Source of the DNA: a bacterium
GTDB taxonomy: Bacteria > UBP6 > JAFGXH01
Assembly (NCBI GenBank): GCA_027064085.1
Contig: JAMOQH010000154.1
Span: forward strand, 1-31,347
DNA: 31,347 bases
Reading direction: 5' to 3'
The notes beneath the pieces are model-generated. The model was not told the DNA's origin, did not search any database, and saw nothing but the letters and a program-made list of their open reading frames with translations. Position 1 is the stretch's first letter; each line of letters starts with the position of its first letter. Made by a program: the position numbers and the translations under genes. Of this stretch, positions 1,152-24,768 are shown piece after piece.

Positions 1152-3794
1152 CTATTTTTTTAACTTTAATGGATTTACCAAATGTAATAAAACCGGTAAT
1201 AAGAATATATCAGCAAGTAATGCTGTAAGCATGGTAACTGAAGTTAATATTGAATAATGAATTATTGCAACAAATTCAGAAAAAATCAGTGGACTAACAC
1301 CTAAAATTATCAATACCGAAGTAAAAATAATAGCTCTTCCTGTTCCAAACATTGTTTTATTGATTGCAATTTTATTACTATCAGTTAAGAGAACTTCTTC
1401 TTTATATCTTGTTAGAAAGTGTATTGAATCATCTACTGCAATACCAAGAGCAATAGAAAATATTAATACAGTTGATGTCCTAACAACAATACCAGTCATA
1501 CCCATAACTCCCATAGTTACAATAATTGGAAGAGTATTAGGTATCATACTTAAAAGCCCTATCTTTACAGATTTTAACATTATTATCATAATAATAGTAA
1601 TAAATATAAATGCAACACCAAGAGAGGTTAACATATCTTCAATGATATGACTTAACGCTCTATAGGCTACATAATTTCCACCTGTAATTTCTACTTTTAC
1701 AGAAGGAGGAAATAATTTTTTAATTTGCTTTCTAAATCTTTTAATAGTTTTAAAAAACACCTGCAATCCAACATCATTTTGAGCAAGTGAAATTCTAGCT
1801 GTATTACCATCATCCGAAACCAAGTGTGAAATATCATTTTTACCATCTTCAGTATCTTTTAGCCTCTCTAAATATGATAAAATTAAATCATTGGCTTTAA
1901 TTCCATCTGAATCTTGTGGTATTTTATAAAATTTTTCATTACTTGCATTTGCTGCCCAATAACTTTCTTTAATATAATCAGAAACCATACTTACCGTTCC
2001 TATTTCAGGCTCAGATTTTCGTATATATGATTTAAATTCATCCATTGCCTCTAGAACATTTGCTTTCAATACTCCATTTTTATGTTTTTTGTCTTTAGCT
2101 GTTATATTAATTTCAATTGGTAAAACTCCAGTTAAATTCTTTTCTGAAAATTTTGTATCTTTATAAACTTGATTTGTTGATTTCATCTCTTCAAGCATTC
2201 TTGTATTTACATTTATTTTCGTTATAAAAAATATTGATATCAATAAAATGCCTACAAATATTGCTATTACTAAAAATGGCTTATTTTCATTTATATGATT
2301 AATAGCATCTAAAAACCCTGTTGAAATTAAACTTTTTTCTTCAATATCTTTTTCTTTATCTCCTTTTGTAAATTTAGGTATGGGTAGTAAAAATAATATA
2401 CCAGGAAGAAGTAACATAATAAATATAAAAGATAATATTATTCCTATTCCGGAATAAACACCTAACCTTTCTATTATATCTATTTTGGCAGTTAAAAGAG
2501 AAAAAAATCCAATCGCAGTAGTAAAACTAGTTATAAAACAAGCTTTAAAAAGCTCTACAAATGTATCAATGATTGCAGTTTTTTTGTCTTTATTACTAAC
2601 ATTAACTTCTCTATGATACCTATGTATTAAATGTATGGTATCAGAAAGCCCAATTACTAAAATTAATGTTGGAATAATATTATTTACAATATTTAAACTT
2701 TCATTGGTTAGCTCCATAATACCAAAAGTTGCAATTGCGGCAAAAGATACAACCGTTAGAGGTAAAATAACACCATGAGCCTTTCTAAAAATAAATAATA
2801 ATATTATTCCCATTACTATTGCAGAAAGTCCAAAAAAGAAAAACAAATCTTTAGATATAAACCTAGAATACTCTCTCTGAGAAATAGGCACACCAACTAT
2901 AGCAAATTTCACATTTAAATCTTTAACTATTTTAGAATTATTTTTTTGGTAATCTTTATAAATTTTCTCTATTTTATTGAGAATAGGAGTTCTTTCTGGC
3001 TCCAAAATAAAAACATCATTTAATTTAATAGCAATTGCTGTTGTTGTTCCATCTTTTGAAATCAACTGCCCTTTGTATAAATGGTGCTTTAACATTTTTT
3101 TCTTAAGTTCATTTAATGGTTTCATGTCCGTTTTACTAAATTTATTTAAATCACTTTTTGATATAAATGGAGAAATATAAATACTATCTATACCATCATC
3201 ATCAACTTTACCATAAATATTTTTAACATTAACTATAGAAATAACTCTTTCTATTGGATTAACTAATTCTCCAACTTTAGATTCAAAAATAGACTTAACA
3301 ACATCTTTATCTTTATTCTCATCCGAGAAAAAATCATCTTCATCATCTATAATTTCTTCTTCGTCTAAATCATTTTTATTTTCTTTTTTTTGAGTTTTAA
3401 TGTTTTCATTAACTATTTTTGCAATATCAGAATCTTTATTTTTTCCATATCCCTTAAAATCTCTTTCTCTTTCATCCGTATCAACTTTTAACGGAGGCCT
3501 TTTAATTTTAATTTTTTTAATATCAGTAACCATAGTATCAAGCATAGTTAAAAATGCTGGAGTAAAAATTTTATCAGATTTCAGTACAATTAAAACAGTA
3601 TTATCATCATCACCAAAAATCCTTCTATGTTGCCCTAAAAAATCAATTGTAGGATCACTTGATATAAATAATGACCTTGTAGAAAAATCCATAACAATAT
3701 CTTTAGCTTTATAGCCTAAAAACATTACAATAGAAAATACTGTAAGTATAACTAAATACCTAAGTTTTATGATTATATTAAAAAATTTTGCCAT
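1152..3794 (-). CDS. RND/MMPL-superfamily exporter (first copy)
   Basis: 880-aa polytopic membrane protein of the MMPL/COG1033 branch of the RND superfamily. One membrane segment lies at about residues 12-29, then a large extracytoplasmic domain, then a membrane bundle from about 315. The architecture repeats in the second half. The paired intramembrane motifs GLSDTIHLIHRYHRE and GIAVDDSIHFLTRYKEE carry the acidic residues expected for proton coupling. The first periplasmic domain has an unusually acidic insert at about residues 140-165. Family members export lipids or other hydrophobic molecules; the substrate here is unknown. It is the last gene of the operon starting at 6415. Its ATG overlaps the stop of the ABC gene by one base (TAATG at 3792-3796), so translation is probably coupled. 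A second family member lies at 10863-13646. Confidence 0.9.
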   Translation of the reverse strand: MAKFFNIIIKLRYLVILTVFSIVMFLGYKAKDIVMDFSTRSLFISSDPTIDFLGQHRRIFGDDDNTVLIVLKSDKIFTPAFLTMLDTMVTDIKKIKIKRPPLKVDTDERERDFKGYGKNKDSDIAKIVNENIKTQKKENKNDLDEEEIIDDEDDFFSDENKDKDVVKSIFESKVGELVNPIERVISIVNVKNIYGKVDDDGIDSIYISPFISKSDLNKFSKTDMKPLNELKKKMLKHHLYKGQLISKDGTTTAIAIKLNDVFILEPERTPILNKIEKIYKDYQKNNSKIVKDLNVKFAIVGVPISQREYSRFISKDLFFFFGLSAIVMGIILLFIFRKAHGVILPLTVVSFAAIATFGIMELTNESLNIVNNIIPTLILVIGLSDTIHLIHRYHREVNVSNKDKKTAIIDTFVELFKACFITSFTTAIGFFSLLTAKIDIIERLGVYSGIGIILSFIFIMLLLPGILFLLPIPKFTKGDKEKDIEEKSLISTGFLDAINHINENKPFLVIAIFVGILLISIFFITKINVNTRMLEEMKSTNQVYKDTKFSEKNLTGVLPIEINITAKDKKHKNGVLKANVLEAMDEFKSYIRKSEPEIGTVSMVSDYIKESYWAANASNEKFYKIPQDSDGIKANDLILSYLERLKDTEDGKNDISHLVSDDGNTARISLAQNDVGLQVFFKTIKRFRKQIKKLFPPSVKVEITGGNYVAYRALSHIIEDMLTSLGVAFIFITIIMIIMLKSVKIGLLSMIPNTLPIIVTMGVMGMTGIVVRTSTVLIFSIALGIAVDDSIHFLTRYKEEVLLTDSNKIAINKTMFGTGRAIIFTSVLIILGVSPLIFSEFVAIIHYSILTSVTMLTALLADIFLLPVLLHLVNPLKLKK

Positions 3795-4762
3795 TATAAT
3801 TCCTCTTTTTTATCTTCATATAATAAGCATGAAACAAAATGTTCCTCTTCTAGCTCTTTAAATTTTGGCTTTTTTTGGTAACAAATATCTTGTACAAAAG
3901 TACATCTATCTAAAAAAACACATCTATTTTCAACCGGCTTTCTTTTTACCTTAAATAACTGCAAATAATTTTCTATGTCATCGATATCTTTATCTGTTTT
4001 ATTAAATAATAACTCAGTATATGGATGTAACCCCATTTCAGAAAACCGACTTTTAGGAATAATTTCTATCAAATTACCTTTATAAAATACTGCAAGCCTA
4101 TCAACTAATTTTAAAATCAACTTTAAATTACTAGAAATTAATAAAATTGAAATATTTCTTTTCTTTTTTACTTTTCTAATTAATTGAATTGTAAAATTAA
4201 GCTGAATAGAATCTTGTTGGCTTAATAATTCATCAATTACAATAAATTCGGGGTTTAAAGATAAAGCTCTAGCAAACATTAACTTTTTTAAATTAATTAA
4301 ATTCAAATCCTCTGCAAGTTTATATAAGTATTTTTCCTTTAATGAAACTTCTTTCATTAGCTTTTTTACATTATCTAATATCTCTGCTTTTTGCTTATAT
4401 AATTTATGAGAAACTATTGGTTCTGAAATAATTTGATAAACAGTCATTTTCAAATTTAACACTGTTTTGGGATCTTGAAAAACTATTTGTAATTTTTTTT
4501 TTAGCTCCCTTTGATTATATTCCAAAAATTCTTTATTTTTATAATAAATTTTTCCACTATCAGCACTACTTAAATTAACTAATATGTTTCCAAGAATTGA
4601 CTTTCCACTACCGCTTTCACCAACTAAACCTATCATTTCTTTTTCATAAATATTGAATGATACATTGTTTAGTAATTTTGTTTTATTAAAGTAATTTAAA
4701 AATAAAACTTTATCTTTTTTAACATATTTTGTTAATTTATAAATTGAAATAAGAGGTTTCAT
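3794..4762 (-). CDS. Oligopeptide-type (OppF/DppF-like) ABC ATPase with degenerate signature and switch motifs
   Basis: 322-aa ATPase subunit of the Opp/Dpp class. An intact Walker A (GESGSGKS, residues 48-55), Q-loop (FQDP, Q96) and Walker B (VIDE, D177/E178) are visible. The C-terminal oligo_HPY tail is recognisable (LHPYTELL at about 245, then Cys281, 287, 294 and 312). The LSGGQ signature is replaced by LNLIN (153-157), and the switch histidine of the usual THD is replaced by SSN (about 210-212). No permease, partner ATPase or binding protein is adjacent. It lies between the FrzS-like gene (TAA directly followed by ATG) and the RND exporter (one-base overlap). The canonical ATPase cycle may be impaired, or the protein may need a partner with a complete signature. 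A specialised ATPase/regulator within this operon is an inference. Confidence 0.85.
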   Translation of the reverse strand: MKPLISIYKLTKYVKKDKVLFLNYFNKTKLLNNVSFNIYEKEMIGLVGESGSGKSILGNILVNLSSADSGKIYYKNKEFLEYNQRELKKKLQIVFQDPKTVLNLKMTVYQIISEPIVSHKLYKQKAEILDNVKKLMKEVSLKEKYLYKLAEDLNLINLKKLMFARALSLNPEFIVIDELLSQQDSIQLNFTIQLIRKVKKKRNISILLISSNLKLILKLVDRLAVFYKGNLIEIIPKSRFSEMGLHPYTELLFNKTDKDIDDIENYLQLFKVKRKPVENRCVFLDRCTFVQDICYQKKPKFKELEEEHFVSCLLYEDKKEEL

Positions 4763-6415
4763 TTACTCTTCTGTTTTAACAACAACTCCATCAATAATAC
4801 TTGTTGCAGCATCTAACAATTGTTTAATTTTTGATTTTTGAAGTTCAATTTCTTTAAATTTATCAGCATTTTCAGAACTTCTTTGTTCTAGTATGATTAT
4901 TTTATCTTGAGCCTCATTAAATTTTGAATTTAATTCATTATGTTCATTCGTTAATTGAGTAAAATCATTTTTATATCTATCTAAATCAACTTCTAAAGAT
5001 TGTTTAGCTGGAAGTAACACTTCATTAATTTCTTTATTACTATTTTCAAGATTAATTTTTAATTCGGAAATTTCTTTTTCATAGTTATTAACTTTTTCTG
5101 TTAATGATGATAACATAATATCTTTATCTGACAGCTCATTTTGTAATTTAAGTTTTTCATTTGTTAAAGAATCTTTCTCCATACTTAAAGATGTAAAATC
5201 ATTTTTTAATATTGATAGTTCATTCTCGGTATTGGCAATTTTTTTTCTATAGCCAGAAATTAAATCATCTTGATCTACTATTTTTAATTCTAAGGTATTA
5301 CAATTATCTTTTAAATCTAAAACATCTCTCTCTTTAGAATTATAAAGCTCTTTAAATTCAATAATTTCCCTTCCTTTTTGAGTTAACTCCTGCTTCAATT
5401 TTAAAACATCTCTATTTGAGCTAGAGGCATTACTTGAATTACTAGCTTCTTCTAATAATTTATTTAAATCGGCAATTCTATTCATTTTGTTTTTATTTTC
5501 ATCTTCTAGTTTAGATATTTTACTTTCTAATTCTGTTATATCAACAGAATTATCACTATTATCATTTAGCTTATTTTCTAATTCTGTTATTTTTTGTTTT
5601 AATTCTTGAATTTTATCATTTTTCTCATTAATTTCTTTAGTTGATATTCCAGTAGATAAATTTTCATTTATATTATTTGCAACAGAAACTTCTTCAATAT
5701 CTAAATCAATGCTTCCCTCATCTATGTCCAACTCTCTTCCTGTTGATTCAATATCTATATCTAGACTTTTCTCTTCTGCATCATAGCTTAAACTATCTGA
5801 GCCTAAGTCATCTTCTAAACTATCTGAGCCTAAATCATCTAAAATATCATCATCTAAACTATCATCTCCTAAATCATCTAAAAGATCATTATTACTTAAG
5901 CCATCACTTTCTAAGTCACCCAAAATATCATCATTTAAATCATCATTTAAATCTCCTAAAATATCATCATCACTTAAGCTATCATCTCCTAAATCAATAT
6001 CTCCAAAAAAGTCATCATTGTCATCACTGCTTCCCGCTAAAGGATCTTCAAGCAATACAAAAATTCTTTTTACGATTTCATCATGAGATAAAGGTAAATG
6101 AAGATACATATTTGCAGCAGTTGGAGTTTCTTTATGTTTATCAAACTTATCTTCTGATGATTTTTCAGAAATAATAACCATAGGGATATCTTTAAATGCA
6201 TCATTCTTTTTTATTCTATTACAAATTAAAAATCCATTTACACCTTGCAAGTCAATATCTAAAATAATTAAGTCAAATTTCTGTTTTTTTAATAATGAAA
6301 ATGCCTTTGAGCCCTTTAAGTCTTCAACTATGTTTTCAACACCTTTTGCTTTTAACGCATCTTTTATTCCTTTTCTTAAACTATCATTACTTTCAACTAA
6401 TAAAACACTATACAT
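4763..6415 (-). CDS. FrzS/AglZ-like pseudo-receiver protein with acidic repeats and a long coiled coil
   Basis: 550-aa cytoplasmic protein. Residues 1-125 form a receiver-like domain resembling Myxococcus FrzS (GFLICNRIKK and the downstream FDKH recall the FrzS receiver). The putative phospho-acceptor Asp53 is present. The acidic pair near the N-terminus is E8-S9, the conserved Lys is Leu107, and the Pro after the acceptor loop is missing (DIDLQG), so it is probably a pseudo-receiver. Residues about 130-235 are Asp/Leu/Ser-rich repeats (DDDILGDL type). Residues about 255-545 are heptad-rich coiled coil. FrzS and AglZ have this receiver plus coiled-coil layout and act at cell poles or focal adhesions in gliding; a polarity or motility role here is inferred. 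First gene of an operon, with AGGGG just upstream and a promoter at 6442-6471. Confidence 0.75.
   Translation of the reverse strand: MYSVLLVESNDSLRKGIKDALKAKGVENIVEDLKGSKAFSLLKKQKFDLIILDIDLQGVNGFLICNRIKKNDAFKDIPMVIISEKSSEDKFDKHKETPTAANMYLHLPLSHDEIVKRIFVLLEDPLAGSSDDNDDFFGDIDLGDDSLSDDDILGDLNDDLNDDILGDLESDGLSNNDLLDDLGDDSLDDDILDDLGSDSLEDDLGSDSLSYDAEEKSLDIDIESTGRELDIDEGSIDLDIEEVSVANNINENLSTGISTKEINEKNDKIQELKQKITELENKLNDNSDNSVDITELESKISKLEDENKNKMNRIADLNKLLEEASNSSNASSSNRDVLKLKQELTQKGREIIEFKELYNSKERDVLDLKDNCNTLELKIVDQDDLISGYRKKIANTENELSILKNDFTSLSMEKDSLTNEKLKLQNELSDKDIMLSSLTEKVNNYEKEISELKINLENSNKEINEVLLPAKQSLEVDLDRYKNDFTQLTNEHNELNSKFNEAQDKIIILEQRSSENADKFKEIELQKSKIKQLLDAATSIIDGVVVKTEE
5785..6010 (-). 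repeat. Degenerate short repeats encoding Asp-rich DDDILGDL-type units
   Basis: The + strand shows many imperfect copies of an atcatctcctaaatcatc-like unit. On the coding strand they encode Asp-Asp-Ile-Leu-Gly-Asp-Leu/Ser-Leu units. Variable spacing (gains and losses of three-base multiples) keeps the frame. Consistent with slippage expansion of a disordered acidic linker. Confidence 0.7.
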
Positions 6416-6441: not shown

Positions 6442-6471
6442 ATCATAAAATAAAACAGCTCAAGTTGTCAA
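6442..6471 (-). promoter_or_regulatory. Promoter of the FrzS-like/ABC/RND operon
   Basis: On the minus strand TTGACA (6466-6471) and TATGAT (6442-6447) are separated by 18 bases, about 27 bases upstream of the ATG at 6415. This is a good sigma-70-type match in the 141-base gap between 6415 and the stop of the next gene. Confidence 0.6.
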
Positions 6472-6556: not shown

Positions 6557-7363
6557 TTATTGTAACTTAAAAAATTTTTTATGAATATAAGTTAAAAATA
6601 TATCATAAATAGCTTTTTCGTCTATCATTTTATTGTTTTTTAATAATTCTTGATGCTTTTCTATTGTTTTATTATCATTTCTAACTATTGGGCCAGTTAA
6701 AGAATTTTGAATATTTTGATTATTTTTTAAATTTATAAAAACATCTTCAAAAAGAGGAAGTAGAATATTTAAAGCATTATTTTCATCAATATTTAAATTT
6801 TTTATTACCTCCACCGAAGATTTAACTAGAGCAGTTGAAAAATTATTAATCATTACAGACGCTAAATGAAAATATTCTTTATCACGACCATTTATAATTA
6901 TATATTTTGGGGATATTTGTTCAATTATAGGCTTAAAAAGCTCTATTAACTTATAATTATCACTTTGTAAGCTAAAATAATGCTCTTTTAAGCGTAATAA
7001 ATCGTTTTTATAGTTTGTTATGCTCATCATTGGATGTATTGATACTATATTTTTTTGTTCTATATATAAAGCACCGGAAAAGTGAAGAAAAATGACATCA
7101 TTTTTTATAACACATTCCGAATTTAATAAACTTATTATATCCAAGATGTAATCATCAGGAGTAGAAATAATAATTAAGTCACTATCTATTTTATTGGGAA
7201 TTTCATTTAATATTTTAAAGTCTAAAAAACTACCCTTCTCATTTTTATCTATGATATTATCTAAAGTGAAATTTAACTCTTTTTTGAATATACTAGTAAA
7301 TATTTTACCAACTTTACCTAAACCTATTACACTAAATGAATTAATTTTTAAATCTTTTTGCAT
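6557..7363 (-). CDS. Rossmann-fold plus DUF2520 oxidoreductase
   Basis: 268-aa protein. Its N-terminal Rossmann nucleotide-binding site (VIGLGKVGKIF, about residues 12-22) and STPDDYI strand resemble the NADP/F420-type oxidoreductase fold. The C-terminal half matches DUF2520: IHPMMS at about 108, then a helical section ending in LTGPIVRNDNKTIEKH with the typical TGPI-R-D and H residues. Members are conserved bacterial proteins of unknown substrate, often near pantothenate/CoA genes. Here it is the last gene of an operon with VKOR-DsbA, holA and a small exported protein. Its ATG overlaps the preceding stop by one base (TAATG, 7361-7365). Confidence 0.85.
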   Translation of the reverse strand: MQKDLKINSFSVIGLGKVGKIFTSIFKKELNFTLDNIIDKNEKGSFLDFKILNEIPNKIDSDLIIISTPDDYILDIISLLNSECVIKNDVIFLHFSGALYIEQKNIVSIHPMMSITNYKNDLLRLKEHYFSLQSDNYKLIELFKPIIEQISPKYIIINGRDKEYFHLASVMINNFSTALVKSSVEVIKNLNIDENNALNILLPLFEDVFINLKNNQNIQNSLTGPIVRNDNKTIEKHQELLKNNKMIDEKAIYDIFLTYIHKKFFKLQ

Positions 7364-8541
7364 TATTTTTTATTTTCTTTATCATTTAACTTTCCTCCAG
7401 CTTCAATAACAATTTTAGAAAGTTCTTTAAATGATTTTGCCCCACTATATGATTTACCATTAATTACATAACCAGGAGTTCCTCTAACACCTACTTTTAG
7501 CCCATCTCTAATATCTGATTTAACCGCATTTATAATCTTTTTAGATTTAATACAGGCTTTCATTTTTTTAGGACTTATTTTTAATTTATCAGCATAAACC
7601 ATTAAATTATCTAAATCTAAATTTTTTCTATTTGAATGAAGTAAATCCGCTGCTAACCAGAATTTATCTTCTAATCCCGCACATTTTGCAAAAAAAGCTC
7701 CATTACAAGCATGTTTATGAAATTTTTTCTCCCCAAGTAGCATATTACACTTATTATCAAGAGGAAATTCTTTTCTTATTAGTTTAACATTGTTAAATTT
7801 ATTAATTACTTTTTTGATTGTCCCCTCAAATCTCTCACAATAAGGACATTCATAATCAGAATATAGTATAATTGTAACGCCTGGCTTATCACTACCAGCA
7901 ATTCCTATTAATTTTTCTTTATTAAATTTACCATTTTTATATTCACTTGCAGTTAATGAAGATATTTCTTTATGAGCCTTACTAAAAACTTTATAAGATG
8001 GCACTAAAACGGCAAATATAATTACCACATAAATAGGAATAATACTTATGGATATATCAAAAAAAGATTTAATATTATCCTTCAAGCAAAACCTTTTTGT
8101 TTCGTCATGTTTAAACTTAAACACTGAAAGTAATACTAGCATAAAAGAAATCCAATTAACAATATAAGTCCCTATACAAAAAACACATAGAGCATCTATT
8201 TTTAATTTTGCAATTACAAAAAAGTAAATACTTCCAATAGAAAATATAAAAAAGAAAAATAATAAAGATGAATAAAATCTTTTACTCTTTTTTGCCGTAA
8301 TCATAAAAATTAAAACAAGTAAATATCCTAAAATACCTATTGATGCAACAGGAACACCCAAAATACTAGAATATTCACTGTCAGCAACTTTACTACAACT
8401 AATTTTAGAATTAAAATCACATTCAGGAACATAATTTGGGTCAAATTTAACATTATAATCAATTTGTAATAAATGAATTGAAATTCCTAAACCAACAATC
8501 ATTAAAATAAATACTATCCAATAAACTGTCTTTTTATTCAT
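7363..8541 (-). CDS. Fused vitamin-K-epoxide-reductase (VKOR) and DsbA-like disulfide oxidoreductase
   Basis: 392-aa membrane protein joining the two halves of the oxidative-folding pathway. The N-terminal VKOR bundle (residues about 1-145) has the loop pair Cys41/Cys49 and the quinone-proximal CVFC (Cys119-Cys122). A transmembrane segment at about 160-182 leads to a periplasmic thioredoxin-fold domain. That domain carries CPYC (231-234) and the cis-Pro loop GTPGYVI near the C-terminus. In known VKOR-Trx/DsbA fusions the extracytoplasmic domain oxidises client proteins and passes electrons to quinone through VKOR. Clients in this window could include the Cys-rich lipoproteins at 1-1038 and 21899-24649. 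Its ATG lies one base after the holA stop. Confidence 0.92.
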   Translation of the reverse strand: MNKKTVYWIVFILMIVGLGISIHLLQIDYNVKFDPNYVPECDFNSKISCSKVADSEYSSILGVPVASIGILGYLLVLIFMITAKKSKRFYSSLLFFFFIFSIGSIYFFVIAKLKIDALCVFCIGTYIVNWISFMLVLLSVFKFKHDETKRFCLKDNIKSFFDISISIIPIYVVIIFAVLVPSYKVFSKAHKEISSLTASEYKNGKFNKEKLIGIAGSDKPGVTIILYSDYECPYCERFEGTIKKVINKFNNVKLIRKEFPLDNKCNMLLGEKKFHKHACNGAFFAKCAGLEDKFWLAADLLHSNRKNLDLDNLMVYADKLKISPKKMKACIKSKKIINAVKSDIRDGLKVGVRGTPGYVINGKSYSGAKSFKELSKIVIEAGGKLNDKENKK

Positions 8542-10862: not shown

Positions 10863-13646
10863 ATGTTTAAAAATTTTGTTATAAAACTAGTAAAATCAAT
10901 TATAAAACATCACAGTCTTGTTACAATTATAACTATACTATTTACAATAATTACTTCTACAATTGCAATACAAAGATTTAAAATTAAAACATCATTAACC
11001 GCATTATTACCAGAAAACTCAGAATCAGTAAGAGTTTTACAAGAAGTAAAAAAAACAAAAGGTTCTACTGACAATATGATTATTATTTTAGAAAATAATA
11101 ATACAAATAATTTGAAAGAATTTGCTAAAATTATTCATGACAAATTACTTGGAGACCCTTTAATATTAACAGCAGAATATCATAGAAATATCAAATTTAT
11201 AAAAGACAGAATTTTATTTCATGTTCCTCTTAAAGACTTGGAAGAAATGGAGGTCAAGTTAAGAGAAAGAATATCCAAAACAAAATTTGATAAAATTACT
11301 GATATTGGCTTAGATAATGAAGATATAAATCCTGAAAAAACAGATAGTGAAGGAGATGTTCTTGATACAGAGGGCGACCCTTTTAAAAAAGATATGAAAA
11401 ATAGAAAATTAGATAAGGATATTAAAGTAACATATAACGAAGATAAAAATGCTACTGAAGTTGAAAAAACATTAGAAAACTGTGATCCCGATACCGATGA
11501 AGATTGTGAAGATGATAATATATCTTTTGATACAGAAGGCGATCCTTTTAAAACAAAACTAAGTAACAACCCCAAAAAAGGAAAATATAAAAGAAAAAAA
11601 GAAGACAATGATTTTTTAGCATACTTAAATGACAAATTAAACACTTATAAAACTAGCCCTTATGCAAATGAATTTAAAGAATGGAGATTATCTCCTGATG
11701 GCCGAATATTGGTTATTATGCTTGTTCCTTCAAAACCAGCTGGAGATGTTGCTTATGCTAAAAATTTAAAATCTCATCTTCAAAAAATAATTAAAACATT
11801 AAAACAAAAACATCCTAAATATAAAGATATAAAAATTAATTATTCAGGCTCTTACATAACAACAGTTGAAGAGACTAGTGAAGTAAAAAAAGATGTGGTA
11901 TCCTCAATTGGATTAAGTATATTTTTAATACTACTTGTATTATTTTTATATTTTGGAAAACTTAAATCTGTCTTAACAATTTTAACACCATTATTAATAG
12001 GTATGGTATGGACTTCTGGAATATTTTTTATATTTGATAGTTATTTAAATTTGATTGCAGCATTTATATTTGCAATCCTTTTAGGATTAGGAATTGATTT
12101 TGGTATTCATATACTCCATAGATACCTACATGAAAGACATAATAATAAAGATATTGAAGAAGCACTGCTAATAAGTATGACAGAAACAGGAAAATCAATT
12201 GTTATTGGAGGCCTAACGACTTCTGCTGCATTCTTTTCATTAATATTTGCAGATTTTAAGGGCTTTAGTCAATTTGGAAGATTAGCATCATTAGGAATTT
12301 TGTTAAATATTATTTCAATTTATGTAATCTTTCCAATATTAGTTATTTTCTTTGAAAATAGCTCTAAAGGATTTGGAATTAGGAGAAATTGGTATAAAAT
12401 TATTTTTAGTAAACTATTCAAAACAATAAATCAAAATATTTTTATAAAAACTAAATTAACTATAGTTATAGTAACTTTAGCTCTTACGGGAGTTGCAATT
12501 ACAAGGTTAATAGAAAAACCTGTTAAATTTGAGTATGATTTTAGAAAATTAAATAAAAAATCAAAAACTAAGAAAAAGCTAGTTAGAAGATATTCTTCTG
12601 CAACAAAATTATCTCTTTCTCCTGCGGTAATACTTACAACATCCGCCAAAGAAACAAAGGATATACATGATGTACTAGCAAAGTTAACAAAAAATCAAGA
12701 AGATTTGGTTAGACAACCTGCAATTTTTCCTATAATAAAAGAATATAATGTTGTTAAAACATATAATATGACAAAATCAATAGATACATTTGGCTCAATT
12801 TACTCTTTTTATCCTAATCACCAAAAAGAAAAACAAAAAGTTTTACAATCAATTAATAAAATGCTTACAGAAAGTAGAATTAAACATTTATCTCCTGACG
12901 AACAAAAATCAGTAAAAGAAATTAGACCATATTTACTTAGTGCTGTTCCATTTAAATTAGACGAACTTCCACAGTTTATAAAAAATATATTTAAAGATAA
13001 AAAAGGTAACTACGATAAAATGTTATTTTTATATGTAAAACTAAATACAACAAATGGAAAGAATGCAATTAAATTTGCAAATGAAATTCGTTCAATAAGA
13101 GTTAATGGTAAAAAATTAAAAGTTACAGCTCAATCTTTAATATTTGCAGATATTTTAATTTTAATTGTTAGAGACAGTTATAAAGTTACAATAATTTCAT
13201 TTATTTTTGTACTTTTAATACTTTTAATTTTTAATAGGTCTATTAAAAAAACATTAATTATGATTATTCCTTTAATTCTAGGCTTACTTGCTACATTGTT
13301 TTTCATGTCATATTTTAATATAAAATTAAGTTTCTTTAACATGATGATTATTCCAACCCTAATAGGAATGGGTATTGATAATTCTGTTCATTTAATGCAT
13401 GTATATGAAAATACAAAAAAATATAATATATATTTTGCATATAAAAATATTATTGGATCAATTACACTTTCTACCGCAACAACAATGATAGGTTTTGCAG
13501 GTCTTCTTACAGCAAATCACCAAGGTCTAAATAGCATAGGAGAATTAGCAATCATTGGCATGTCTTCGATGTGGTTTATGATTTTTATACCTATGCCTGC
13601 AATTTTACAATTATTAAGTAAAAATAAAGAAAATAATAATTCATAA
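10863..13646 (+). CDS. RND/MMPL-superfamily exporter (second copy)
   Basis: 927-aa RND-type exporter with the duplicated layout of the family. The N-terminal membrane segment is at about residues 15-38, then a large extracytoplasmic domain, a first membrane bundle with GLGIDFGIHILHRYLHE, a second periplasmic domain, and a second bundle with GMGIDNSVHLMHVYEN. The first loop holds a long charged insert (about 145-265) in which DTEGDPFK occurs twice about 70 residues apart, flanking a CDPDTDEDC motif. It follows pssA by 14 bases with an AAAGGA ribosome site, hinting at a membrane-lipid substrate (inference). It is related to, but clearly diverged from, the copy at 1152-3794. Confidence 0.9.
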   Translation: MFKNFVIKLVKSIIKHHSLVTIITILFTIITSTIAIQRFKIKTSLTALLPENSESVRVLQEVKKTKGSTDNMIIILENNNTNNLKEFAKIIHDKLLGDPLILTAEYHRNIKFIKDRILFHVPLKDLEEMEVKLRERISKTKFDKITDIGLDNEDINPEKTDSEGDVLDTEGDPFKKDMKNRKLDKDIKVTYNEDKNATEVEKTLENCDPDTDEDCEDDNISFDTEGDPFKTKLSNNPKKGKYKRKKEDNDFLAYLNDKLNTYKTSPYANEFKEWRLSPDGRILVIMLVPSKPAGDVAYAKNLKSHLQKIIKTLKQKHPKYKDIKINYSGSYITTVEETSEVKKDVVSSIGLSIFLILLVLFLYFGKLKSVLTILTPLLIGMVWTSGIFFIFDSYLNLIAAFIFAILLGLGIDFGIHILHRYLHERHNNKDIEEALLISMTETGKSIVIGGLTTSAAFFSLIFADFKGFSQFGRLASLGILLNIISIYVIFPILVIFFENSSKGFGIRRNWYKIIFSKLFKTINQNIFIKTKLTIVIVTLALTGVAITRLIEKPVKFEYDFRKLNKKSKTKKKLVRRYSSATKLSLSPAVILTTSAKETKDIHDVLAKLTKNQEDLVRQPAIFPIIKEYNVVKTYNMTKSIDTFGSIYSFYPNHQKEKQKVLQSINKMLTESRIKHLSPDEQKSVKEIRPYLLSAVPFKLDELPQFIKNIFKDKKGNYDKMLFLYVKLNTTNGKNAIKFANEIRSIRVNGKKLKVTAQSLIFADILILIVRDSYKVTIISFIFVLLILLIFNRSIKKTLIMIIPLILGLLATLFFMSYFNIKLSFFNMMIIPTLIGMGIDNSVHLMHVYENTKKYNIYFAYKNIIGSITLSTATTMIGFAGLLTANHQGLNSIGELAIIGMSSMWFMIFIPMPAILQLLSKNKENNNS

Positions 13647-21898: not shown

Positions 21899-24649
21899 TT
21901 ATTTAACCCAAAGAGTTCCAAAAAATGAATTATTTACCATACCCAAACTACAATCAGACGAACGACACATTTCACCAGACCCATGTTCTTCTGATGAGTT
22001 AGCATTATTTTTAGGTCCAAGTCCAAATCCTATTGCTGTATCAAGAGAATTACAATCATTTTCTTGATTAGAAACATAACCAAATCTAGCTTGTCTGTAT
22101 TGCCAATGAGTATTAATACCAAAATGCTTACAATAAGGTTGTACGGACCATGAAGATTTTATTCCAGGATGTCCAGTAACAACATCTTCTGCTCCACTAA
22201 AAATTTCTAAGGCAGTTTTACTAGCATCAAAATTTTTATAAAAATTATAATTATCCATGTAACCTCTAAGTTTAGTAACTTTAATGGTACTGTAGCTATT
22301 ATATTTTGCATTTGTATTATCCATACTTAAATCATTTTCATTATAAAGAACTGTATTTGTCCAATATGAAGAAGTGTATTTAAATGTAGAGTCTCCGTTA
22401 GTTTTCATAATTAAAGTCCAGCCTCCTCCATCTGTTATCATATCACAGTAAACTTTAAAAGGCTCATTATCACCATCTAATCCATCAGGGTCTATAGTAT
22501 AAATTCCATCTCCTATACTAAAACCATTCTCCAATATCTCTTTACAGGATTTAAAGTAATTTGGAACATTATTTTCACACACATAAGCTTGATTCTTATT
22601 TGTACAAACCCAATCATTCCAAGTTCCTTGACTACGCATTTCAATGCAGTTTTCATTATTCCCTGCGTTATCTGGTTGATATGGAGTTTCCCAATTATTA
22701 TATAAGTATCCAACTGCTTCATAATTCCAACGATAGTTACCTTCTTGAGCTAAATCGTTTAAACCAATAAATATATTATTACCAGATAGTAAACTAGTTT
22801 TTTGATTAAAAACCCAAGTATTTTCATCTCCGTTATCTATTTTAACCAAAGTATAATTCATACTATTACATTGAGCCTCTGCTTCAAACCAATTTAATTC
22901 TTCATTACAAAACAAATATACATGACCATTATATTCTTCTCTTGTACAGTTACTATCGCAAACTCCCGCTTCATCTATAACTCCATTACAATCGTCATCT
23001 ATTCCATTACATATTTCTTCAGGTTCAGTTCCTTCACCACACATATCACAAGCATCACCTTTACTATCTCCATCTTCATTTGCTTGATCAGGATTAGCAG
23101 TATAAATACAGTTATCAATACAATCTTCAACACCATCACTATCTGTATCTGTATCAGCAATACCACAACCACAAACACCAGCTTTTGTTTTGTTAACATC
23201 ATTTATACACTCATCACAAGCATCTCCAACTCCATCACCATCTGTATCAAGTTGCTCAGGATTTACAATAAGAGGACAGTTGTCAAGTTCATTTCCTTCT
23301 TCATCAAAGTCATTTATAGCGTCATTATCATCATCTGTATCACAAGCGTCACCCATTCCATCACCATCTGTATCAACTTGGTCAGGATTTGCAACAAACT
23401 GGCAGTTATCTAGTACGCTTCCATCATCATTAGAATCATTTATTCCATCATTATCATCATCAATATCAACACAATCTGCCTGCTCATCATTATCATTATT
23501 TGGAAAATTATCATCAATTATTCCATTACAATCATTATCAAGACCATCACAAGTAACCTCCTCTGATTCATAATGCTCAACCAAAGTATAACTAGGTTCC
23601 CCCCAACCTCCTGTTCCATTACACTCTTTCACCTGTCCTTGGCATACCCCTTGAGTTTTATTCGCAGGAGGAGGAGTTAATGCATCATCAGGGCTTCCAT
23701 TGCAATCATTATCAAGACCATCACAAATTTCTTCTACTGGAGTAACTTCTCCAACTGTTTCTCCCCAATGTCCATTAACGCATGTTTGAATCCCTGCTTT
23801 ACACTCTCCCGTATCTGAACCCTGACTTCTAGTTCTACCTGTTGTACATTCACAACCCTCATCAATAGTTCCATTACAGTTATTATCTTTTAAGTCACAT
23901 GAAAGTTCTGATTCTTCATAACCATCAATTAAGTTATAATCAGGCTCTATCCAACCATTAGCTCCATCACATACTTTTTTACTATTTGCACATACTCCTA
24001 CTGTTTTATCAGCAACGGGAGCAACTAAATTATTATCAACCTCTCCATCACAATCATTATCTAAGCCATCACACTTGGTTTCTTCGGTCTGATAACCATT
24101 TATTGAGGTGTAGTTGGGCTCTTGCCAACCATTTACACCCATACAAAGTTTCTTAGCTTCAGCACATACTCCCGCTGTTTTATCAGCAGCTGGTGCAATT
24201 AAACCATTATCAACACTACCATCACAATCATTATCTTTATTATCACAGCTTACTTCTGTTTCTTCATAACCACTAATTAAAGTATAGTCTGGCTCTATCC
24301 AACCATTAGTTCCATCGCATACTTTTTTGTTATTGGCACAAACACCTGCTGTTTTATCTGCATCAGGAATAACTTCAAAATTGTCATCTATTTCGCCATT
24401 ACAATCATTATCAAGGCCATCACAAATTTCTGAAGACGGAAGAACTTCGCCTTCACACATTCCCCATTTACCACTTGTTTGACAAGTTTGTGTTCCTTTT
24501 TTACATATACCTACACTTGCACTATTATTATCTCCTGTGTAACATTCTTGGGTTTGCCCTACTTTACACTCTGTATTTATAGGTGTCTGTGTTTCCGAAC
24601 AGGAGAAAAATATTAAAAATAAAATTAAAAATAGTAAATATTTATACAT
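21899..24649 (-). CDS. Giant surface lipoprotein: MopE repeats, thrombospondin-3 repeats, C-type lectin and fibrinogen-like domains
   Basis: About 916 aa from an ATG at 24647-24649, chosen because TAGGAG lies just upstream. The N-terminus is a lipoprotein signal ending in IFFSC. Residues about 20-575 carry seven copies of the MopE-type metal-binding motif (CDGLDNDCNGEID pattern), five of them spaced by Cys-rich units with GVCANNKKVCDGTNGW-like text. Between the sixth and seventh copies lie Ca-binding thrombospondin type-3 repeats (DTDGDGVGDACD). At about 575-710 is a C-type-lectin domain (ending NENCIEM...GTWNDWVC). The C-terminus, about 715-916, is a fibrinogen-related domain (CKEIL...VYCDMITDGGGWTLIM). 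It is probably a secreted, Ca-dependent, carbohydrate-binding adhesin that depends on periplasmic disulfide formation. Its own promoter region is at 24650-24800. Confidence 0.9.
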   Translation of the reverse strand: MYKYLLFLILFLIFFSCSETQTPINTECKVGQTQECYTGDNNSASVGICKKGTQTCQTSGKWGMCEGEVLPSSEICDGLDNDCNGEIDDNFEVIPDADKTAGVCANNKKVCDGTNGWIEPDYTLISGYEETEVSCDNKDNDCDGSVDNGLIAPAADKTAGVCAEAKKLCMGVNGWQEPNYTSINGYQTEETKCDGLDNDCDGEVDNNLVAPVADKTVGVCANSKKVCDGANGWIEPDYNLIDGYEESELSCDLKDNNCNGTIDEGCECTTGRTRSQGSDTGECKAGIQTCVNGHWGETVGEVTPVEEICDGLDNDCNGSPDDALTPPPANKTQGVCQGQVKECNGTGGWGEPSYTLVEHYESEEVTCDGLDNDCNGIIDDNFPNNDNDEQADCVDIDDDNDGINDSNDDGSVLDNCQFVANPDQVDTDGDGMGDACDTDDDNDAINDFDEEGNELDNCPLIVNPEQLDTDGDGVGDACDECINDVNKTKAGVCGCGIADTDTDSDGVEDCIDNCIYTANPDQANEDGDSKGDACDMCGEGTEPEEICNGIDDDCNGVIDEAGVCDSNCTREEYNGHVYLFCNEELNWFEAEAQCNSMNYTLVKIDNGDENTWVFNQKTSLLSGNNIFIGLNDLAQEGNYRWNYEAVGYLYNNWETPYQPDNAGNNENCIEMRSQGTWNDWVCTNKNQAYVCENNVPNYFKSCKEILENGFSIGDGIYTIDPDGLDGDNEPFKVYCDMITDGGGWTLIMKTNGDSTFKYTSSYWTNTVLYNENDLSMDNTNAKYNSYSTIKVTKLRGYMDNYNFYKNFDASKTALEIFSGAEDVVTGHPGIKSSWSVQPYCKHFGINTHWQYRQARFGYVSNQENDCNSLDTAIGFGLGPKNNANSSEEHGSGEMCRSSDCSLGMVNNSFFGTLWVK
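22990..24430 (-). repeat. Seven MopE-type metal-binding repeats and thrombospondin-3 repeats within the lipoprotein gene
   Basis: On the + strand the strings ccattacaatcattatcaag and close variants recur about every 150-190 bases from about 23,520 to 24,420, each encoding the C-D-x3-D-N-D-C-N-G core. The region 23,030-23,480 holds the DxDGDG-type calcium repeats. This internal repeat array is the coding basis of the stalk. Confidence 0.85.
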
Positions 24650-24768
24650 AAAAGCTCCTAAAAAATAAATAAACATTGGATAATCGCAATTTTTTTTCCT
24701 TTTTTAATCAAAAATACAATATACTAACTACTACTATAAAAAAAATCCTGTAACTCTCTACATAAGAT

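Follow-up and report, generated by a model that had tools for sequence, protein, structure and literature searches.

Polarity adaptors, ABC transporter subunits and export pumps are not obvious partners, and a locus that encodes all three in close succession raises the question of which of its genes belong together and what they might do. We addressed it in the window, i.e. the whole stretch of 31,347 nucleotides of contig JAMOQH010000154.1 that was analysed. Three consecutive open reading frames on its minus strand encode a coiled-coil protein with a receiver domain, an ABC ATPase and an RND exporter (Table 1). The stop codon of the coil gene abuts the start of the ABC gene with no base between them (TAAATG), and the stop of the ABC gene overlaps the start of the RND gene by one base (TAATG). 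An earlier note on this DNA had described these frames, their tight spacing and their motif losses, and our coordinates, junctions and residues agree with that description. It had also suggested that the three genes form a module in which the coil protein places the pump. Proteins of the FrzS/AglZ type, with which the coil protein was compared, are adaptors in polarity and motility.

The genome of the window (G000) was analysed together with two relatives of the same family, G001 (JAFGXH01) and G002 (DYRY01). The family sample thus consists of three genomes from two genera, all of them MAGs with 82-95% completeness. The record DYRY01000019.1 (L095), deposited as Anaeromyxobacter dehalogenans, is G002 and belongs to the same family as G000; the deposited name looks wrong.

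The three genes had been given a common promoter. The site in question is the best match of its region, yet this A+T-rich region shows no excess of promoter-like matches over shuffled sequences (38 against 44 expected). From its letters, a promoter at 6471-6442 is plausible.

Table 1. Features of the locus and of related loci in the family. Positions are those of the window unless a locus (L) is named.
Feature	Position	Strand	Basis or remark
FrzS/AglZ-type pseudo-receiver coiled-coil protein (assigned), 550 aa	4763..6415	-	ORF, PF00072, FrzS match, tree
Pseudo-receiver domain, residues 1-125; E8/S9, D53, S83, H94, Y104, L107	6041..6415	-	alignment, AlphaFold, Foldseek
Acidic linker, residues 126-248	5672..6040	-	composition
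Coiled coil, residues 255-545; the block SSNR..LKQ...REIIEFKELYNSK and the C-terminal helix are conserved	4781..5653	-	
OppF-type ABC ATPase (nucleotide-binding subunit), 322 aa, signature lost	3794..4762	-	Pfam, NCBIfam, motifs
Lost LSGGQ signature site (LNLIN, residues 153-157)	4292..4306	-	motif alignment
Four Cys (C281, C287, C294, C312) with DppD [4Fe-4S] ligand spacing	3827..3922	-	alignment
MMPL/HAE3-type RND exporter, 880 aa	1152..3794	-	Pfam and NCBIfam
Candidate sigma-70-like promoter TTGACA-18-TATGAT, just upstream of the coil gene	6442..6471	-	11/12 consensus positions
ParA, OppB-like and OppC-like genes	L126 3656-5837 with L215 594-1793; L157 2219-5850		conserved G000-G002
MglB-like/MglA loci of the family	L174 2433-3522; L175 1662-2753; L173 278-2099		

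The coil protein

The protein has the layout first read from its sequence, a receiver followed by an acidic segment and a coiled coil. Residues 4-118 match PF00072 (6.9e-16), the linker contains 39% D+E and 2% K+R, and the C-terminal part shows strong heptad periodicity (z 7.5). The receiver has indeed lost its lysine and one acidic residue: L107 occupies the lysine position, with leucine also in the relatives, and the acid pair is E8/S9 in G000 and Q/N in the relatives. Serine (S83) stands in place of the threonine, and the phospho-acceptor D53 is retained in all three family genomes. A receiver counts as a pseudo-receiver when one or more of its five catalytic residues are missing (PMC12632262). 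This one, with S9 at DD2 and L107 at Lys, is therefore a pseudo-receiver.

Its resemblance to the receivers of FrzS and AglZ, raised in the earlier note, was confirmed by sequence, since residues 1-125 are not nearer to ordinary phospho-receivers. The best solved relative is FrzS (2e-16), the next unrelated receiver being DivK (1.4e-9), and a tree of 31 receivers splits the FrzS-type and family proteins from the ordinary ones with support 99/96. The AlphaFold model of the domain has a pLDDT of 90.8, and its top Foldseek matches by E-value are FrzS chains (best 2i6f). Fold comparison alone does not decide the receiver type, because VIA-align Z scores are nearly equal for FrzS (20.2-20.7) and DivK (20.1) and many receivers are tied. 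H94 and Y104, which do not vary within the family, are the equivalents of His92 and Tyr102 of FrzS, which are essential for its function and its localisation at the leading pole (PMC1974792). FrzS makes no use of phosphorylation, and AglZ carries the same His/Tyr pair (PMC1974792). Across 386 genomes surveyed, the four best non-family matches to the coil protein are all of the FrzS/AglZ type, and each has the F-x-x-H motif, the tyrosine and a coil tail; the top survey matches include an AglZ-like locus (L208). A scan of genome contigs returned full-coverage relatives only in two family records, three other matches being confined to the receiver, and a search of viral contigs for relatives found none.

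Judged by these comparisons, the coil protein of the window is a FrzS/AglZ-type pseudo-receiver coil. FrzS of Myxococcus xanthus likewise has an N-terminal pseudo-receiver with the His/Tyr pair and then a long coiled coil, and AglZ, of Myxococcus xanthus gliding, shares both the domain layout and the pair. We speak of FrzS/AglZ type and not of FrzS itself because D53 is kept. FrzS has Ala53, and across FrzS and eight FrzS-type proteins of the survey this position is A, S, C or N, whereas it is D in the family. Having kept the Asp and lost the Lys, the family coils differ from all nine FrzS-type proteins compared. No gliding-motility (Agl/Glt) gene was noted near the coil-ATPase pair. A likeness between the C-terminal helices of the family coils and AglZ was seen by eye only and was not adopted.

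The ATPase

The second protein matches PF00005 (1.6e-21), and OppF is both its best NCBIfam match and its best solved relative. The oligo_HPY match (PF08352) is borderline, with 27.4 bits in the genome scan against a cut-off of 27.1 and 25.0 bits, just under, with hmmscan. It retains Walker A, Q-loop and Walker B. The signature is not intact, as had been noticed at the outset: LNLIN stands where LSGGQ would be, and Ser in place of the H-loop His. The AlphaFold model, computed from three sequences, has a pLDDT of 37.8. The spacing of the four cysteines is identical to that of DppD (284, 290, 297 and 315), and they are invariant across the OppF-type ATPases of the family. In DppD, mutation of the [4Fe-4S] ligand cysteines dissolves the transporter complex, i.e. 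the ligands are needed for assembly (PMC12136057). Their invariance suggests that the window ATPase still joins a complex with permeases. The oligo_HPY region and the four-Cys [4Fe-4S] motif are thus shared with the OppF/DppF/NikE-type ATPases of Opp/Dpp/Nik systems, but the window protein differs from these in having lost LSGGQ and in being encoded away from permeases or a binding protein. Since LSGGQ is absent, we regard it as a divergent relative and do not count it as an active Opp ATPase.

Gene order across the family

The coil and ATPase genes are adjacent in all three family genomes, hence in two genera, and either abut or are spaced by one base; in G001 and G002 the ATPase gene follows the coil gene one base on. 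All the genes flanking the pair differ between the genomes: they are ftsY-like and secA genes in G001, and G002 has genes for M16-type proteases and for an unrelated repeat protein. No counterpart of the pairing was seen at the eight FrzS/AglZ-type loci inspected in other lineages: the few kilobases retrieved there contain no Opp-type ATPase.

The third protein matches PF03176 (MMPL), and its best NCBIfam is HAE3 (2.8e-66, below the NCBIfam cut-off), in line with its first description as a hydrophobe-type RND exporter. Like HAE3/MMPL exporters it has two MMPL domains, and the proton-relay region in TM10 is intact and conserved (DD788/789). Orthologues with about 55% identity occur only in the family. 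In G001 and G002 they are on contigs other than those of the coil-ATPase pair, one of them alone and the other followed by a bactofilin gene. Because the RND gene is unlinked in both relatives, what is conserved is a two-gene module of coil protein and OppF-type ATPase, to whose transcript the pump was added in this lineage only. Gene order therefore upholds the proposed module for the pair and not for the pump: a three-gene module is not supported by synteny in G001 and G002, and the notion that the coil protein generally places the pump falls with it. Between G001 and G002, dN/dS is 0.21-0.36 for the coil, OppF, OppD and OppC genes and 0.15 for the RND gene. Such purifying selection argues against simple decay of the coil/Opp gene set.

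Opp-type and polarity genes elsewhere in the genomes

The ATPase had been described as lacking a permease. No permease gene is linked to it, but OppB-like and OppC-like permease genes, together with an OppD-like ATPase gene, are found elsewhere in the genome, and the stronger reading that the genome has no permease is overturned by the OppB-like and OppC-like genes at the C40 locus. In G000 and G002 the two permease genes are side by side and unlinked to the ATPase gene, while G001 has a complete OppC-like gene and an OppB-like gene in two pieces at contig ends. The G000 proteins match Opp1B (OppB-like, 1.4e-13) and Opp4C (OppC-like, 2.3e-10). The permeases keep recognisable C-terminal Opp permease regions, and TM1 and TM2 of the OppB-like proteins are separated by about 240 extra residues on the extracytoplasmic side. 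Among 386 genomes the full-length OppB model is matched by only three members, all of the family, and the others match only its C-terminal permease part. In G000 and G002 the permease genes are preceded by one for an ATPase of the ParA family whose N-terminal motifs are cysteine-rich.

The second Opp-type ATPase, which is OppD-like, is encoded at C33 in G000, C131 in G001 and C210 in G002. Walker A is present in all six NBDs of the family and LSGGQ in none, whereas all seven Opp ATPases taken from other genomes for comparison have LSGG or FSGG. The OppD-like proteins of G001 and G002 have lost Walker B, and only that of G000 has the four cysteines; it may not be a strict orthologue of the other two. 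When compared with a complete Opp/Dpp/Nik transporter, G000 has the OppB and OppC types, and no OppA (SBP_bac_5) was found. An SBP_bac_5 binding protein scored in none of the three family genomes, which are incomplete MAGs, and in 11 of 14 control genomes. A canonical Opp ATPase or OppA may have been missed at this completeness (82-95%).

The gene of the second signature-less, four-Cys ATPase in G000 overlaps one for an MshEN-like protein with a long acidic part (C33; L100 3396-4292 and 4270-6081). The two were considered as a conserved pair and dropped, the MshEN homologue of G002 having no adjoining ATPase. Both G001 and G002 encode a large MshEN-like protein, with acidic and HEAT-like parts, upstream of a PstC/PstA-like permease pair (L159 476-4929, L160 222-4711), and the G001 copy contains a long run of ETIEIPVEAVEPVS-type repeats.

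The family also encodes relatives of polarity proteins. G001 and G002 each have an MglA gene with an adjoining MglB-like gene, and an MglA-like gene of G000 overlaps with one for a histidine kinase. Binding of SgmX to the pseudo-receiver of FrzS is made possible in Myxococcus by MglA-GTP (PMC12632262). Given the MglA/MglB-like proteins of the family, a role of the coil protein in polarity or spatial organisation is plausible.

Possible functions of the pair

How could these elements work together? We propose that the OppF-type ATPase would be a subunit of a divergent complex of the Opp/Dpp/Nik family, whose OppB-, OppC- and OppD-like partners are encoded at scattered loci. Its pairing with these permeases is presumed because they are the only close Opp-type set. 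The ATPase would enter the complex via its C-terminal four-cysteine domain and would bind ATP through Walker A. With LSGGQ lost in both ATPases, the canonical cycle of ATP-sealing and hydrolysis is probably absent or very slow, although an atypical signature is not proof of absent hydrolysis. The loss of LSGGQ, the failure to find SBP_bac_5 and the extracytoplasmic domain gained by OppB lead us to think that the complex may act as an ATP-bound membrane receptor or scaffold, and probably not as a peptide importer. The FrzS-like protein would read a polarity protein or another protein partner via its His94/Tyr104 face, not by phosphorylation, and would tether or gate the complex through the ATPase. 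We infer here the physical assembly of the complex, the loss of its ATPase activity, its localisation, the reading of a partner, coil-ATPase binding and function. That the two-gene module serves an Opp-derived membrane scaffold or receptor with impaired ATP cycling, placed or controlled by a FrzS-like adaptor, has in our view an even chance of being right. Its most specific form, in which an Opp-type complex deprived of sealing motif and binding protein, and with an OppB ectodomain gained, docks to a FrzS-type adaptor as a doubly pseudo positioning or signalling device, is put forward more tentatively. Together, these observations suggest an old transporter re-used as a positioned membrane complex.

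In the main rival to the scaffold, the transporter still works. It would be a divergent member of the Opp/Nik type whose ATPases hydrolyse ATP despite an unconventional signature, and the FrzS-like protein would regulate or localise uptake or export. Such activity would fit the presence of Walker A and the Walker B Asp in all OppF-type copies, the H-loop His kept in the G001 and G002 copies, the recognisable C-terminal regions of the permeases and purifying selection. Yet LSGGQ is missing from both NBDs in all three genomes, the G001 and G002 OppD-like proteins are without Walker B and no binding protein was found in the family genomes, so that we hold this explanation to be rather unlikely. 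One might also speculate that the genes are relaxed or decaying, neighbours by chance in an Opp system nearing loss. Several motif positions are eroded, the genes are dispersed and the ATPases are only 30-33% identical across genera. But the frames are open in all three genomes, dN/dS is well below 1, the pair has been retained although all its flanks changed, and the four Cys and Walker A are invariant, which makes decay improbable. Even less credit is due to a three-gene module in which the coil protein places the RND exporter and the ATPase is accessory. The co-directional, overlapping gene set of G000 and the intact proton relay of the pump speak for it, but against it stand the orthologues (55% identity), which in neither relative are linked to the coil and ATPase genes.

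We searched the literature for a pairing of pseudo-receivers with ABC proteins, or for an ABC ATPase partner of FrzS/AglZ-type proteins, and found nothing relevant. The pairing of the coil protein with an Opp-type subunit offers a concrete and testable connection of bacterial polarity proteins with a re-purposed transporter, and the family ATPases lend themselves to asking how an ABC complex may serve without its signature motif.

Other genes in the window

Upstream of the operon, positions 7363-8541 encode a fusion of VKOR and DsbA-like thioredoxin domains. A second RND protein (10863-13646, 927 aa, HpnN/BstA-like) adjoins a phosphatidylserine-synthase-like gene on the other strand. Further along, at 21899-24676, is the gene of a lipoprotein-like protein in which CDGLDNDCDG and calcium-binding-type repeats are numerous and the C-terminal part is lectin-like.
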